Positions 24,371 to 54,265 of a stretch of 64,000 nt of DNA are shown piece by piece (position 1 is the stretch's first letter; each line of letters opens with the position of its first letter). A program made the position numbers and the translations under genes. The notes under the pieces were generated by a model that ran no database searches, had not been told where the DNA came from, and worked only from the letters and a program-made list of their open reading frames with translations. Source of the stretch: Candidatus Bathyarchaeota archaeon A05DMB-5 (GTDB lineage Archaea > Thermoproteota > Bathyarchaeia > Bathyarchaeales > Bathycorpusculaceae); NCBI GenBank assembly GCA_019685655.1, contig JABFQP010000002.1, positions 1-64,000 of the forward strand, in the 5' to 3' direction.

Positions 24371-24583
24371 TGAAGTCAGCCTCAATTCACCCTTAAACAT
24401 GCATGTTACTTTTAAACATTCTCAAACGTGCCAAAACACAGAACTTATGCAAAACGCAAGCGTGTTAAGTCAACAACACTGAGCATGTAAGAACCCCAAA
24501 CAATATTCAAAGAAATAACAGAAAAGAAGCATCATCATCTTTGGTTTGAGTATTGGTGGGGCTGGTCGGATTTGAACCGACGA

Positions 24584-24612
24584 CCTTTCCCCGGAGACAG
24601 CGCTTGGCTGTT
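24584..24612 (-). other. Intron 2 of tRNA-Trp (variable loop)
   Basis: About 29 nt separate AGG from TC of the expected 5-nt variable loop AGGTC, and the insertion ends with a repeated AGG. It folds into a hairpin (ACAGC-CAAGC-GCTGT), and CCCG of the adjacent exon can pair with CGGG inside it, as expected of a bulge-helix-bulge substrate at a noncanonical site. Such extra introns are known in Thermoproteota tRNAs. Confidence 0.6.
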
Positions 24613-24621
24613 CCTACGGGT

Positions 24622-24688
24622 TTCTCTATGACCGCTCCAGAACTTCTTCATTCCGCTTCGGGCGGTCCGCAAACCCGTTTGTTGCATT
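24622..24688 (-). other. Intron 1 of tRNA-Trp (anticodon loop, 37/38)
   Basis: About 67 nt inserted after position 37, the canonical archaeal site. It contains TTCTGGAG (24642-24635 on the minus strand), which is perfectly complementary to the anticodon-loop sequence CTCCAGAA, and a GACCGC/GCGGTC pair. A weak C-box-like ATGAAGA precedes the complementary element. I did not identify a clean D box, so a C/D guide function, known for euryarchaeal tRNA-Trp introns, is only a possibility. Confidence 0.65.
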
Positions 24689-24872
24689 CTGGAGCCCGTC
24701 GTCATACCTTCCTAGACTACAGCCCCGTTGTGTTTGTGGCATTAAATTTACTGTAGAGGATAAGATATATGCGTTATTCCTACGTCCTTTCTAGAATAAC
24801 TAGAGAAGCTTATGCGTTAGATGCGTGAACATCTAATTATCTTAAAGTATTTATGATCGATTCCGGTAACGT

Positions 24873-37456: not shown

Positions 37457-38983
37457 ATGGTTGACCTCAGAGAGCACGAACGTAAAACGCTTCTGGCTTT
37501 AGAAAAGCTTGGAGGAAAAGCCTCAGTTGAGCAACTAATAGCCGAAAGCGGATTGTCAAACGCTGCAGTAATGCGTGCAGCACTGACAATGCAAGAAAAA
37601 AAGCTCACTAAAATAAACGAGAAGAAGCAGACAATTGCAAAGCTTAGCAAAGAAGGGGCATTATATGCCAAAAAGGGATTACCGGAACGCAGAATCTTAA
37701 ACGTTCTTTATAACAAAGGCTGCGAAACTGCAATTTCTACCATTGCGAAGGAAGCAGACGTTCCTTCCGACACAGTTTCTGTAGCGTTAGGTTGGCTTGT
37801 GCGGAGAAAATGGGCTGTAATAAACCAGAAGAACCATACGCTTGCCATCGCCCAAGACATTTTAGCTCAGAAACCATCCAAAACTGATGAAGAAAAACTT
37901 CTCGAGATTCTAGCGGAAAGAAAATCGGTGGTTGTTGAAGAGTTGGACAAGCGGCTTCAAGATGCTGTTGCCTTGCTGAAGCGTCGTAAGCTTATGGAAA
38001 CAAAGGAGAAGTCAATTTACGAGTTGGAGCTAACGGAAGAGGGAAGGAAGCTAGTCAAAAAAGGATTAGAAATTATTAAGGAAGAAGTAACTCAGCTAAC
38101 GCCTGAACTTATTATTACTGGAAAGTGGCGCGAAACAAAACTGAGAAAATTCGACGTTACCGCGCCTGGACCGGTTGTTTATCCGAGCAAAAGTCATCCG
38201 TTGCAGCAGATTATAAATCGTGTCCGCGAAATCTTTCTAGAAATGGGTTTTACAGAAATCCGTGGACCATTAGTTGAAACTGCCTTCTGGAACTTTGACG
38301 CTTTATTCCAGCCTCAGGACCACCCAGCTCGCGAGATGATGGACACTTTCTATTTGGCTAATCCTAAAGCTGGGAAACTGCCTTCAAAAGGCATAGTTAA
38401 CGCGGTTGCTAAAACGCATGAAAATGGTTGGACAACGGGTTCTAAGGGTTGGCATTACAAGTGGAGTCATGCAGAAGCGAAAAGGCTTGTTTTGCGAACG
38501 CATACGACAGCTGAAACAATAAAGTATCTTTCTCAGCATCGAAAACCGCCAATAAAAGTGTTTTCTGTAGATAGGGTTTACCGCAACGAGCAAGTCACGT
38601 ACAAGCATCTTCCAGAATTTTATCAAGTAGAAGGCATAGTCATGGATAAGAGCGTGACACTTGAAGATTTGATGGGCACGTTAAAGGCGTTTTACGCGAA
38701 AATGGGACTGAAAAAAGTGGAGTTTTGGTCATGCTACTTCCCATACACTGAACCTTCAGCTCAAGCAATGGTTTACCATCCCAAACTTAAGCGGTGGATG
38801 GAACTGTGCGGAATGGGCATTTTCAGACCAGAAGTCACTGCTCCCGTCGGCGTCAAATATCCAGTGCTCGCGTGGGGCGGTGGATTAGAGCGTTTAGCGA
38901 TGATTGAGCTTGGCGTGGATGATATTAGAACACTTTATGGTAATCGCCTTGAATGGCTTAGGAGGACACCACTATGCCAGTGA
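37457..38983 (+). CDS. pheS: Phenylalanine--tRNA ligase, alpha subunit
   Basis: 508 aa from the ATG at 37457 preceded by GAAGGGGAA (37442 would add five residues). As in archaea and eukaryotes the N-terminus carries tandem winged-helix DNA/RNA-binding modules (~1-210), and the catalytic core follows with motif 2 (VYRNEQVTYKHLPEFYQVEGIV) and motif 3 (LAWGGGLERLAMIELGV). It attaches phenylalanine to tRNA-Phe as part of an alpha2-beta2 complex. The gene overlaps pheT by 10 nt. Confidence 0.97.
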   Translation: MVDLREHERKTLLALEKLGGKASVEQLIAESGLSNAAVMRAALTMQEKKLTKINEKKQTIAKLSKEGALYAKKGLPERRILNVLYNKGCETAISTIAKEADVPSDTVSVALGWLVRRKWAVINQKNHTLAIAQDILAQKPSKTDEEKLLEILAERKSVVVEELDKRLQDAVALLKRRKLMETKEKSIYELELTEEGRKLVKKGLEIIKEEVTQLTPELIITGKWRETKLRKFDVTAPGPVVYPSKSHPLQQIINRVREIFLEMGFTEIRGPLVETAFWNFDALFQPQDHPAREMMDTFYLANPKAGKLPSKGIVNAVAKTHENGWTTGSKGWHYKWSHAEAKRLVLRTHTTAETIKYLSQHRKPPIKVFSVDRVYRNEQVTYKHLPEFYQVEGIVMDKSVTLEDLMGTLKAFYAKMGLKKVEFWSCYFPYTEPSAQAMVYHPKLKRWMELCGMGIFRPEVTAPVGVKYPVLAWGGGLERLAMIELGVDDIRTLYGNRLEWLRRTPLCQ

Positions 38984-40647
38984 TAACACTTTACAAGGAA
39001 AGATTTTCCAAATTCATGGGCAAAAAAGTCACGATTGAGGAATTAACAAAGAATTTGCCATGGATTGGCTTCGACTTGGAAGAGATAACTGAAGATTACG
39101 TGAAAGCCGAGTATAACCCCAACCGCATCGACTTCTGCAGTTACGCGGGCGTCGCTAGAGCCTTGAAAGGATTCTTGGAATTGGAAACTGGAATGCCAAA
39201 ATACACTTTGAACGCTCCGAAAACCACGCTTGTCATAGACAAAGCTGTCGCCAATGTTAGACCGTACATGCTCGCGGGCGTAGTTCGTAACATAAAGCTT
39301 GACGAAGACGCTGTTGTCGAGTTGATGGAGATTCAGGAAGACCTTCACTGGGGAATCGGCAGAGACCGCAAAAAAGCGTCTATTGGCATTCACAACCTAG
39401 ACGTAGTCAAGCCGCCTTTAACTTTCACGGCTGTTGAACCTAAAAGCGTGAAGTTTGTTCCTTTAGGCAAGACTGAAGAGATGGATTTGAAGGAGATTTT
39501 GGAGAAGCATGAGAAGGGAATGGATTATCGCCATCTTGTGGACTGGTCGTCAACGTATCCATTGTTAATTGACAAGGACGGCGCTGTTCTTTCGATGCCT
39601 CCAATAATAAATGGCGAATTAACGAGAGTAGACGCTAACACGCGAAACTTGTTTTTGGATGTTACTGGCACAAGCTATGAGGCTGTTGAAAAAAGCTTGA
39701 ATATTTTAGCTACAGCTTTAGCGGACATGGGCGGCACGCTTGAAAAGGTTAACGTGAAATACTCTGACCGCACTGTGGTTTCGCCAAACCTTGACGCTGA
39801 AAAAATGAAGTTGAGAGTTGATTATGCAAATGAGCTTCTCGGTTTGAAGCTTTCTGAAGCAGAAACTATTAGGTGCTTGCGAAAATGCAGATTGGACGCA
39901 AAGAGAATGAGCAAAGGCGTCTTGGAAGTTTATTATCCCGCTTATCGAATTGACATACTTCACGAAGTGGATTTGGTTGAAGAGGTCGCCATAGGCTACG
40001 GATATTACAAGCTGAAGCCAACAATTCCTAAGGCTGTAACAGTCGGCGAACAGCATCCAGCCCACAGACTGGCGAACACTGCGCGTCAAATAATGATAGG
40101 CTTAGGCTTTTTGGAAGCCATGAATTTCACACTTACAAACGAACGCATCCACTACGAGTACATGCGAACCAAACCAGAAAACCCAATAAAACTTGCCAAT
40201 CCAGTCTCCATGGACTATACAATAATGCGGCAATCCCTATTGCCTGGACTGATAAAAAATTTGGCTGACAACAAAAGCGAAAGCTTTCCACAGCGATTGT
40301 TCGAGGCGTCGGATGTTGGAAAAATAAATAAGCGAACAGAAACCATGTGCGAAAGGAGACTTCACGTAGCCGCAGTTTCATCACATTCCACAGCGAACTT
40401 CACCGAGATAAAATCAATTGTTGAGGCTTTTCTTGCGAATTTGGAATTGAAATGGCAAATAAAAGAGGCTAAACACCCAAGCTTCTTAGAGGGCAGAACC
40501 GCCGCCATAATCATCAACGGCAAACAGCTGGGCGTCTTAGGCGAGATTCACCCGCAAGTCCTAAACAACTTTGAACTTGAAAACCCAACAGCAGCATTCG
40601 AAATAGACCTAGAACCACTAATAAAAAAAATGAAACATAGCCTATAA
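38974..40647 (+). CDS. pheT: Phenylalanine--tRNA ligase, beta subunit
   Basis: 557 aa, the short archaeal/eukaryote-type beta subunit without the bacterial N-terminal EMAP domain. The editing B3/B4 region (VRNIKLDEDAVVELMEIQEDLHWGIGRDRKKASIGIHNLD) and the catalytic-like B6/B7 region (VDLVEEVAIGYGYYKL; FLEAMNFTLTNE) are recognisable. It overlaps pheS by 10 nt, implying translational coupling of the two subunits. The stop is followed by the 40.6-41.1 kb intergenic region with the candidate RNA. Confidence 0.96.
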   Translation: MPVITLYKERFSKFMGKKVTIEELTKNLPWIGFDLEEITEDYVKAEYNPNRIDFCSYAGVARALKGFLELETGMPKYTLNAPKTTLVIDKAVANVRPYMLAGVVRNIKLDEDAVVELMEIQEDLHWGIGRDRKKASIGIHNLDVVKPPLTFTAVEPKSVKFVPLGKTEEMDLKEILEKHEKGMDYRHLVDWSSTYPLLIDKDGAVLSMPPIINGELTRVDANTRNLFLDVTGTSYEAVEKSLNILATALADMGGTLEKVNVKYSDRTVVSPNLDAEKMKLRVDYANELLGLKLSEAETIRCLRKCRLDAKRMSKGVLEVYYPAYRIDILHEVDLVEEVAIGYGYYKLKPTIPKAVTVGEQHPAHRLANTARQIMIGLGFLEAMNFTLTNERIHYEYMRTKPENPIKLANPVSMDYTIMRQSLLPGLIKNLADNKSESFPQRLFEASDVGKINKRTETMCERRLHVAAVSSHSTANFTEIKSIVEAFLANLELKWQIKEAKHPSFLEGRTAAIIINGKQLGVLGEIHPQVLNNFELENPTAAFEIDLEPLIKKMKHSL

Positions 40648-40683
40648 CACATTACCTTGGAAGAGAGTAGACTAACGGGTCAA

Positions 40684-40697
40684 CCTATATATAAGGG
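40684..40697 (+). promoter_or_regulatory. Strong TATA box of the intergenic RNA candidate
   Basis: CCTATATATAAGGG (40684-40697) is the best TATA-like sequence in the window and stands 37 bp beyond the pheT stop. No protein gene begins within the ~390 bp downstream, so it most plausibly drives a noncoding transcript beginning near 40714. Confidence 0.6.
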
Positions 40698-40711
40698 AGG
40701 GCTAGTCACAA

Positions 40712-41010
40712 AAAAGAACCCATTTTTTCCAACAACCACTCAACAGTAGACAGTAATGCTTAACTTTTCAAAAACCCACCTAATCCTTTGGCGATGACAA
40801 ATTCTGGAGCTTCCCAAATCCCACCGGCAAATCCATGAAGACGGACCCAACAAAGGCGACAAGCCAATGACGAAGGGTTTACCCAAACATGGGACACGGT
40901 GGGCGCGGGCGCAAAAATCCCACGCCGAGAGAGCTTAACCTAGAGGAGCGCAACGCTCCACAATGAAGTTAAGTGATAGGTTACGTGGGAAACAAACGCC
41001 CGCGAAAACA
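40712..41010 (+). ncRNA. Unidentified structured RNA candidate
   Basis: This 443-bp gap between pheT and the methyltransferase has no protein reading frame of note but extensive complementarity. A 7-bp helix CCCACCG (40820-40826)/CGGTGGG (40897-40903) is followed at once by a long imperfect hairpin: CGCGGGCG (40904-40911)/CGCCCGCG (40997-41004), CCCACG (40919-40924)/CGTGGG (40984-40989), TAACCTA (40936-40942)/TAGGTTA (40977-40983) and GGAGCG-CAA-CGCTCC (40945-40959). Internal loops are A-rich. It has its own strong TATA box, and the following gene has a separate one. It does not match RNase P RNA (present elsewhere), SRP RNA, tRNA or rRNA as I know them. Ends are estimates. Confidence 0.55.
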
Positions 41011-41056
41011 ATCATCACTTTCCAGTCACACCTATAACATTTGAAAAATTCATTAG

Positions 41057-41066
41057 CCTTATCTAA
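41057..41066 (+). promoter_or_regulatory. TATA-like element of the methyltransferase gene
   Basis: CCTTATCTAA around 41057-41066 lies 25-34 bp upstream of the ATG at 41091. The spacing suits a leaderless mRNA for the methyltransferase and argues that the structured RNA upstream is not its 5' leader. Confidence 0.4.
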
Positions 41067-41090
41067 CTGGACATAAACAAATTAGTTAAC

Positions 41091-41858
41091 ATGAAAATAT
41101 ACCGGCACCCTCTCTACTACGAAATAGCATTCAGCTTCATCGACCCCAAAGAACAAGTCGACAATTTCGAAAAAATAATCCGTAAATTCAGTAAGATAAA
41201 AGTTAACCGATTCTTGGATATAGCTTGCGGACCAAGTCTACAGCTGAGAGAAATAGCCAGAAGAGGCTACAAAGCAATCGGGTTAGACTTGTATCCCGAA
41301 ATGTTAGAGTATTTGAGAAAGAAAGCAAAAGAAGAAGGAGTGAAAATAGAAACAGTACAAGCAGACATGTACAATTTTAGATTAAAAAAGAAAGCAGACT
41401 TCGCGTTTATCATGATGGGCTCCTTGGATGCAGAGTCAAACGAAAAATTCCTATCACACTTGGATTCTGTAGCGGCTTCTCTAAACAAAGGAGGACTTTA
41501 CTTCATCCAGAATATGACTATTGACTGGACACAGAGTGCAAAACAAAGCTGGAGCATGGAAAGAGATGGGATTTCGGTGGAAGCAACCTTCGAAACCCAT
41601 CTTAAAGATGTTCTCAATCAGATTTACACTGAAGAAATAACTCTTGTAGTTAACGACCATGGAAAAGTGAAAAGATTTACACAAAGAGAAAATCTAAAGT
41701 TCATATTTCCACAAGAATTCAAAACACTCATAAAACTAAACGGCAAATTTGAGTTCTTGGGTTGGTGGAAAGGAAACTGTAACACATGGCATTTAGACCA
41801 ACCTCTCGAAAAGGCCGAAAATTTGAATGACAACATGGTTCTTCTCAGAAGAAAGTGA
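41091..41858 (+). CDS. Class I SAM-dependent methyltransferase
   Basis: 255 aa. Motif I FLDIACGPSLQLREIARRG (~47-65) binds S-adenosylmethionine; motif II is seen at VIGLD-like AIGLDLYPEMLEYLRKKA and motif IV at ADFAFIMMGSLDA. The C-terminal half is beta-rich with no recognisable substrate motif (FIQNMTIDWTQSAKQSWSMERDG). It may methylate a small molecule, lipid or protein. Its own promoter precedes it, and the TyrRS gene follows on the same strand 92 bp later. Confidence 0.9.
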   Translation: MKIYRHPLYYEIAFSFIDPKEQVDNFEKIIRKFSKIKVNRFLDIACGPSLQLREIARRGYKAIGLDLYPEMLEYLRKKAKEEGVKIETVQADMYNFRLKKKADFAFIMMGSLDAESNEKFLSHLDSVAASLNKGGLYFIQNMTIDWTQSAKQSWSMERDGISVEATFETHLKDVLNQIYTEEITLVVNDHGKVKRFTQRENLKFIFPQEFKTLIKLNGKFEFLGWWKGNCNTWHLDQPLEKAENLNDNMVLLRRK

Positions 41859-41950: not shown

Positions 41951-43027
41951 TTGGACATAGAAACAAAAATCGACCTAATCAAGAAGCCGCCAACAGAAGA
42001 AATCTTAACAGAAGAAGAACTAAGGCAACTTTTGCAAACGAATGAGCATCCTGGGCATTACCAAGGCTTCGAAATCTCCGGCTTACTACATTTAGGAAAC
42101 CTAATAATTTCTGGTTTTAAAATAAACGATTTTCTCAAAGCTGGAATAAAATGCCAAGTCTACCTCGCCGACTGGCACAGTTTCATAAACAACAAGTTCG
42201 GCGGTGACTGGAACAAAATCCTCTCCGCATCAAAATACTACGCTGAAGCCTTCAAATTCTTCTGCCCCGGAGCAAAAATCGTCGTAGGCTCAGAACTTTA
42301 CCACAACAACGACGAATACTGGCGAAACCTACTAAAATTCGCGAAACACATGACGCTCAGCAGAAGCCTCCGTTGCCTAACAATAATGGGAAGAAGCGAA
42401 AACGAAAAACTCGACTTATCCCAATATTTCTACGCGCCAATGCAAGCAGTTGACGTGAAAGAAATAGGCGCCGACATACCACACGGCGGAATGGACCAAA
42501 GAAAAGCCCACGTACTCGCCAGAGAAATCTTCCCAAAAATGGGATGGACCAAGCCGGTCGCAGTTCACCACCACGTGCTCATGGGCATAGCAGAACCCGT
42601 CAAACTCAAAACCAAAGACAAGCTCGAACAAGTTATCGCAAGCAAAATGAGCAAATCCAAACCATGGACCGCCATATTCATCCACGACACAGACCAACAA
42701 ATAAAAGAAAAACTACGCAAAGCATGGTGCCCAGAAAAACAAGTAGACATGAACCCCATTTTAGACATGGCCAAACACGTAGTATTCCACGAAACAAAAA
42801 CATTCAAAATAGAACGCCCAGCAAAATTCGGCGGCACAATTGAATTTGAAAACTACGAGGAACTAGAAAAAGCCTACGCGCAAGGCAAATTGCACCCGCA
42901 AGACCTCAAAAACGCAGTGGCAGAAGAACTCTCCAAAATCATCAGTCCCATCAGAAAATACTTCGAAGCCAACAAACAAGCAAAAGAATACTTAGAAGTG
43001 CTGAAAAAAGCTCAAATAACAAGGTAA
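41951..43027 (+). CDS. tyrS: Tyrosine--tRNA ligase
   Basis: 358 aa starting at TTG 41951. Archaeal class I TyrRS with a HIGH-like GLLHLGN, the tyrosine-binding YFYAPMQAVDVKEIGADIPHGGMDQRKAH and the KMSKS-loop ASKMSKSKPW. It lacks the bacterial S4-like C-terminal domain. It charges tRNA-Tyr. The Toprim gene follows after 5 nt, so the two may be cotranscribed. Confidence 0.96.
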   Translation: MDIETKIDLIKKPPTEEILTEEELRQLLQTNEHPGHYQGFEISGLLHLGNLIISGFKINDFLKAGIKCQVYLADWHSFINNKFGGDWNKILSASKYYAEAFKFFCPGAKIVVGSELYHNNDEYWRNLLKFAKHMTLSRSLRCLTIMGRSENEKLDLSQYFYAPMQAVDVKEIGADIPHGGMDQRKAHVLAREIFPKMGWTKPVAVHHHVLMGIAEPVKLKTKDKLEQVIASKMSKSKPWTAIFIHDTDQQIKEKLRKAWCPEKQVDMNPILDMAKHVVFHETKTFKIERPAKFGGTIEFENYEELEKAYAQGKLHPQDLKNAVAEELSKIISPIRKYFEANKQAKEYLEVLKKAQITR

Positions 43028-53950: not shown

Positions 53951-54265
53951 GGGCTGGCGAGTTGGTGAGTGGCTTTCGAGCCTTGCAACAGAAGGCTTGA
54001 GGAAACTCCGCCCACACGTAGAATTGCAATATCCGCAAGGGTGTAAGGCGAGAGCCTTGGCTTCGGAGCAGAAACGAAACGTCCACCCGCAAGTGCCAAT
54101 GATGCATGCTAAGTTGTTGAGAATGCGGGTTGGAAGCGGTGAAACGGCCGTCCTGCAAGTGGAAAGGGCAAACAGACGCTGATGCGGAATCTACCCAAGG
54201 CGCGGGTAGCCCGATTAGTCGAATGCCACATAACAGAAGGCGGGTTACAGCCAACACGCCAACCC
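53951..54265 (+). ncRNA. rnpB: RNase P RNA (archaeal type A)
   Basis: About 315 nt. Conserved region I appears as GAGGAAACTCCGCCCA (54000-54015), the CR-IV/V side as GAATGCCACATAACAGAAGGCGGGTTACAG (54220-54249). The ends pair as P1: GGGCTGGCGAGTTGG (53951-53965) with CCAACACGCCAACCC (54251-54265), which is 13 of 15 positions paired. It is the catalytic RNA that cleaves the 5' leader from pre-tRNAs. It lies alone between the AK6 gene and a membrane-anchored OB-fold protein. Ends were set at P1. Confidence 0.95.

Follow-up and report, generated by a model that had tools for sequence, protein, structure and literature searches.

A conserved two-hairpin RNA gene of Bathyarchaeia is a predicted H/ACA pseudouridine guide for two regions of 23S rRNA

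By the criteria in the literature, a productive archaeal H/ACA guide has a ten-layer GA stem, a kink-turn or K-loop, and an ANA box 14–15 nt (up to 16 nt) from the pair that closes the pocket (PMC4652768). In Haloferax, hairpin HP1 has been assigned to U2621 (E. coli 2586) and HP2 to U1956/U1958 (E. coli 1915/1917) (PMC2584109); in Haloferax volcanii these hairpins are the Hvo1/Hvo2 of PMC4652768. The homologue of HP2 in Pyrococcus has L2016, which corresponds to 1915, as its target (PMC2584109). L2016 is the target of the third hairpin of HgcG/Pab40/Pf7 (RF00064), a multi-hairpin H/ACA RNA of the Thermococcales. Within Thermoproteota, the Pyrobaculum H/ACA-like sRNAs sR201–sR210 are pseudouridine guides with a kink-turn (PMC4652768).

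We analysed a stretch of 64,000 nucleotides (the window) from the 1.5-Mb genome of an archaeon, and found in the intergenic gap downstream of pheT a gene for a structured RNA (Table 1). Judged by its sequence and fold, we are highly confident in predicting that this RNA is a two-hairpin H/ACA pseudouridine guide. In its plan it is like the HP1/HP2 pair of H. volcanii, with two H/ACA hairpins (D1 and D2) predicted to address the same two target regions. The haloarchaeal hairpins are separated by a long spacer, whereas those of the Bathyarchaeia RNA adjoin through the clamp helices P1 and P5. The RNA shares with HgcG a multi-hairpin H/ACA plan, but has two hairpins rather than three, and the Rfam structure of HgcG is drawn without outer clamp helices. 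Most of the Pyrobaculum sRNAs lack the full lower stem; in the window RNA the lower stem is complete and is followed by a further helix.

Table 1. Features of the RNA locus and its surroundings. Positions are those of the window, except for copies of the ~25-bp block, which are given as source genome (G000), contig and position.
Feature	Position	Strand	Basis or remark
pheT	38974-40647		upstream neighbour of the gap
Intergenic gap with the RNA gene	40648-41090		
Upstream TATA of the preliminary description, CCTATATATAAGGGAGGGCTA	40684-40704	+	extra promoter-like element of the genus; further copies in the genome
Conserved BRE + TATA promoter of the RNA, CAGTAATGCTTAACTTT	40751-40767	+	
H/ACA guide RNA gene (predicted), transcript of ~216 nt (predicted)	40790-41005	+	conservation, covariation, conserved promoter spacing
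5′ mini-hairpin RGC-RAU-GA-N(3-14)-GA-GCY, kink-turn/K-loop-like	40790-40811	+	pattern in ~35 relatives
Hairpin domain D1, closed by clamp helix P1 (40820-40826/40897-40903)	40820-40903	+	pairing, compensatory changes
D1 H/ACA hairpin	40832-40893	+	
D1 lower stem P2	40832-40838/40887-40893	+	
D1 5′ guide GACGG	40840-40844	+	pairs with 23S CCGUC, E. coli 2590-2594; invariant in 38-39/39
D1 ten-layer upper (GA) stem	40845-40854/40869-40878	+	
D1 kink-turn U-GA	40868-40870 opposite 40853-40854	+	
D1 3′ guide ACCCA	40881-40885	+	pairs with 23S UGGGU, E. coli 2580-2584; invariant in 39/39
D1 ANA box (ACA)	40894-40896	+	15 nt below the pocket; invariant in 39/39
Hairpin domain D2, closed by clamp helix P5 (40904-40911/40997-41004)	40904-41004	+	pairing, compensatory changes
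D2 H/ACA hairpin	40919-40989	+	
D2 lower stem P6	40919-40924/40984-40989	+	
D2 5′ guide GAGAGAG	40927-40933	+	pairs with 23S helix 69 flank CUCUCUC
D2 ten-layer upper stem	40933-40942/40965-40974	+	
D2 apical stem P8	40945-40950/40954-40959	+	
D2 kink-turn U-GA	40964-40966	+	
D2 3′ guide GUUAC	40980-40984	+	pairs with 23S GUAAC, E. coli 1910-1914
D2 ANA box (AAA; ACA or AGA in relatives)	40990-40992	+	14-16 nt below the pocket
Methyltransferase gene	41091-41858		between the gap and tyrS
tyrS	41951-43027		after the methyltransferase gene
Copies of the ~25-bp block	G000:C5:75889, C1:455655, C5:109516, C4:127673, C6:51736, C6:7555, C1:433863, C1:251936		

The gap contains no convincing protein frame (the longest open reading frame inside it encodes 48 amino acids, on the minus strand), and the region folds better than its shuffles (z = −3.0; 0/100). 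A preliminary description of the locus had proposed a real structured RNA gene here, without a credible protein frame and with helices that relatives might keep by covarying pairs, and in all of this it was borne out. Covariation analysis of a 39-sequence alignment defined eight helices with 48 pairs; 92% of cells were paired, 28 of the 48 pairs showed double-sided changes, and the covariation score was 0.239, compared with 0.139 for shuffled alignments and 0.05–0.08 for slid partners. Among 33 class-level sequences that lay outside model-building, 89% of cells paired, 44/48 pairs were double-sided, and the score was 0.613 (0.227 shuffled, 0.06–0.11 slid); because this alignment was fitted to the covariance model, the figure leans towards the model, although the slid controls were far lower. 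Each hairpin runs through a clamp helix, lower stem, internal loop, upper stem, U-GA/GA kink-turn and apical stem, and its descending strand returns through the internal loop and lower stem to an ANA box and the clamp helix. The 7-bp helix that the preliminary description reported is P1, and its long bulged hairpin, capped by GGAGCG-CAA-CGCTCC (40945–40959), is D2; the inner helices P2–P4 of the first hairpin had escaped it. Folding the single sequence suggested that the 5′ GATGA pairs with a downstream TCATC; relatives do not keep this pairing, and it was discarded.

A DNA search at E ≤ 1 gave matches in 54/61 genomes; in a few of these the match is no more than a short chance or promoter-like one. 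The core of the RNA (40817–41008) could be aligned across the whole order, and the genomes that hold it are named Candidatus Bathyarchaeota or Bathyarchaeia. A covariance model built from the 39-sequence alignment found the RNA in 103/121 genomes of the class and in 83/300 of the phylum. The RNA is present in two diverged copies in a few genomes (G034:C120:17421 with G034:C108:16161; G238:C2; G315:C1). We also considered whether D1 and D2 arose by recent duplication, and rejected this: tandem matches elsewhere consist of D1 followed by D2, and the likeness of the two is that of a shared H/ACA design.

Both hairpins have the stem, internal loop (pocket) and stem of an H/ACA unit, supported by covariation. 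The ANA box keeps its distance from the pocket in 39/39 sequences for each hairpin; the D2 box reads ANA in most of the 39. A GA stem of ten layers, counted on the 5′ strand, was present in both hairpins in 39/39, and the U-GA of the kink-turns was invariant or nearly so. A descriptor of the H/ACA features matched 11 places on the two strands of the 64 kb; D2 ranked first and D1 shared third place. Because the descriptor was written with the fold of D1 and D2 known, this ranking shows rarity rather than independent discovery.

One feature departs from the customary picture. The ANA box is usually described at the 3′ end of the H/ACA motif. Here neither box lies at a 3′ end outside any further helix; both sit in loops closed by P1 and P5. 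We read the enclosed boxes as a variation, the published working criteria being the hairpin, the kink-turn and the ANA spacing, and not a free tail.

Might the family be genuine H/ACA RNA and the window copy inactive? Its first kink-turn has AA in place of GA on one strand and its second ANA box is AAA, as decay might leave them. However, AAA is a permitted ANA box, and the RNA is single copy in its genome, is 97% identical to that of a same-genus genome and has all guide bases intact, so that we give degeneration hardly any credence and regard the window copy as a predicted working guide.

The partner genes Cbf5, Nop10 and Gar1 are all encoded in the genome. In cbf5 the reading frame breaks in two at profile position 70 (G000:C7:8887-9872; L134, L135), with ~25–30 nt at the junction lying within a strong hairpin resembling a bulge-helix-bulge. 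Introns with such hairpins are known in cbf5 from Crenarchaeota (PMC2738675), and the split is likely to be a very short pre-mRNA intron, or else a frameshift.

Potential targets were sought in 16S plus 23S rRNA, 4.5 kb together, with a strict test devised once the fold was known: a site had to contain a short gap with a U in it, flanked on either side by a Watson-Crick run. The 23S model RF02540 found nothing in the window's own genome, and therefore the 23S of the same-genus genome was used, fetched by pattern; E. coli numbers were placed on the bathyarchaeal 23S by us, through conserved sequence. Results showed exactly one strict site for each pocket. For D1 this was UGGGU[UUAGA]CCGUC in the peptidyl-transferase loop (E. 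coli U2585/U2586), and for D2 it was GUAAC[UCUGA]CUCUCUC in helix 69 (E. coli U1915/U1917). Shuffled guides equalled the match at the fixed sites in 19/20,000 trials for D1 and 6/20,000 for D2. A more permissive scan, which allowed wobbles and a single mismatch, did not discriminate: random sites came out as high as shuffles, and the strict matching took its place. The complementarity is thus in two parts, but five target bases are left unpaired in each predicted duplex. In the canonical H/ACA duplex there are two, sometimes three. The uridines named at each site are thus candidates for modification.

An Rfam search of the gap, at the gathering cut-off and at E ≤ 10, returned only junk, in keeping with the absence of a family match expected by the preliminary description. 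That description had also set aside RNase P, SRP, tRNA and rRNA, correctly: the SRP RNA and RNase P RNA models did not match the RNA locus, and these RNAs, tRNA and 5S were all found elsewhere (SRP RNA on another contig, RNase P RNA at 53957–54259) and were rejected as identities for the RNA. A separate Rfam match of 42.5 bits at 24557–24726 on the minus strand, 170 nt long and not called by ARAGORN, is probably an intron-containing tRNA gene.

The further claim of the preliminary description, that the RNA was unidentified, gives way to the H/ACA anatomy, the predicted targets and the link to HgcG. Six divergent Thermoproteota members, found by the covariance model, matched RF00064 at E values from 2e-5 to 0.6, the best scoring 30.5 bits against a gathering cut-off of 77 bits. 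That cut-off was reached by neither the window RNA, nor any of the relatives (0/61), nor any of 14 control genomes, and RF00064 is therefore a narrow model. Common descent with HgcG is likely rather than demonstrated, because the likeness may partly come from guiding the same target.

These matches bear on a rival reading, in which the structured RNA is of a new class (a regulator, say, or an RNP scaffold that guides nothing) and its H/ACA likeness is due to chance. The window RNA does go without an Rfam match even at E ≤ 10, and its clamp helices and 5′ element are foreign to the usual description of H/ACA RNAs. Chance likeness would nevertheless have to account for H/ACA geometry in both hairpins across 39 sequences, for two pockets each uniquely complementary to a known pseudouridine site, and for divergent relatives that match HgcG. 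We consider a new class very improbable, and an H/ACA guide remains our reading.

The gene has its own promoter. The block CAGYAAYRYTTAAYTT is kept ~28 bp upstream of the RNA 5′ end in nearly all relatives, and that end is itself conserved (GGCGATGA at 40790; RGCRATGA across relatives). From this spacing we placed the RNA at ~40790–41005, and not from near 40714, where the preliminary description had its start. The strong TATA on which that start depended, TATATATA at 40686–40693, does exist, but it is kept at the RNA locus in the same-genus genome only and not outside the genus, and the conserved promoter lies ~70 bases further downstream. A second, longer transcript from the upstream TATA is possible, and would not be the conserved arrangement. 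The upstream TATA falls in a block of ~25 bp, TTCAACCTATATATAAGGG(A)GGGCTA (40679–40704), that recurs across the genome, its sister and other genera. Copies 79–100% identical occur in at least eight other places in the source genome and also in its sister, and at least two copies directly precede an apparent protein start; conserved beyond a plain TATA box, the block is perhaps the promoter of a regulon.

In many relatives the RNA locus is flanked by pheT and tyrS. The methyltransferase gene that separates the RNA from tyrS in the window (class I, PF13649) is missing at this place from the same-genus genome and most relatives, where tyrS comes next after the RNA. That the RNA lies upstream of tyrS in most relatives is what one would expect if it acted in cis on the downstream gene, as a leader or riboswitch. 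Against such a role, the RNA is served by a promoter of its own at a fixed distance, many relatives have a separate TATA-like AACTTTTAAGTT after it, and in the window the RNA is unchanged despite the methyltransferase gene between it and tyrS. Moreover, D2, the helix 69 guide, matches the covariance model alone in some orders and families of the class (L207–L212, L216). We therefore consider a leader exceedingly unlikely, and favour the independent non-coding RNA that the preliminary description had also proposed.

The clamp helices P1 and P5, both outside the ANA boxes, were ~97% and ~95% paired in the 33-sequence set and are among the best-covarying helices. Because they adjoin without a spacer, the two hairpin units are probably stacked end to end through P1/P5. 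Judged against the Rfam HgcG structure and the usual H/ACA description, the clamps are unusual; they mark one lineage's version of an RNA of known kind, ordinary in its predicted function. The 5′ mini-hairpin, a possible L7Ae site from its sequence pattern, is absent from six loci (L011, L025, L026, L028, L044, L049), and in relatives without the RGCRATGA element the TATA stands correspondingly nearer to P1. Tentatively, and with somewhat more doubt than belief, we suggest that Bathyarchaeia have a variant guide in which the clamps enclose the ANA boxes, two H/ACA RNPs form a rigid tail-to-tail pair and the 5′ element adds a third site of L7Ae type, so that a single particle could coordinate modification of the peptidyl-transferase centre and helix 69.

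We infer from these features that the gene is expressed and its RNA assembled into an RNP. In the proposed mechanism, a small independent gene would yield an RNA of ~216 nt that forms two tandem H/ACA hairpins. Each would be bound by Cbf5 together with Nop10, Gar1 and L7Ae, with L7Ae on the kink-turn and Cbf5 on the ANA box. The D1 pocket would pair with 23S rRNA around the peptidyl-transferase uridines U2585/U2586 and the D2 pocket around U1915/U1917 of helix 69, and Cbf5 would convert the uridines presented in the pockets to pseudouridine. P1 and P5, closing the hairpins below the ANA boxes and abutting, would allow the units to stack end to end. Since descriptions normally put the ANA box at the 3′ end of the motif, the clamps are a structural departure that deserves attention in reconstituted H/ACA RNPs.

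An RNA gene present throughout a major archaeal class, conserved and so far without annotation, is here given a likely function. Rfam is blind to this guide in Bathyarchaeia, and the lineage's version with clamps is uncatalogued in the resources that we searched. Our prediction is that functionally central uridines of 23S rRNA would be modified under RNA guidance in Bathyarchaeia.
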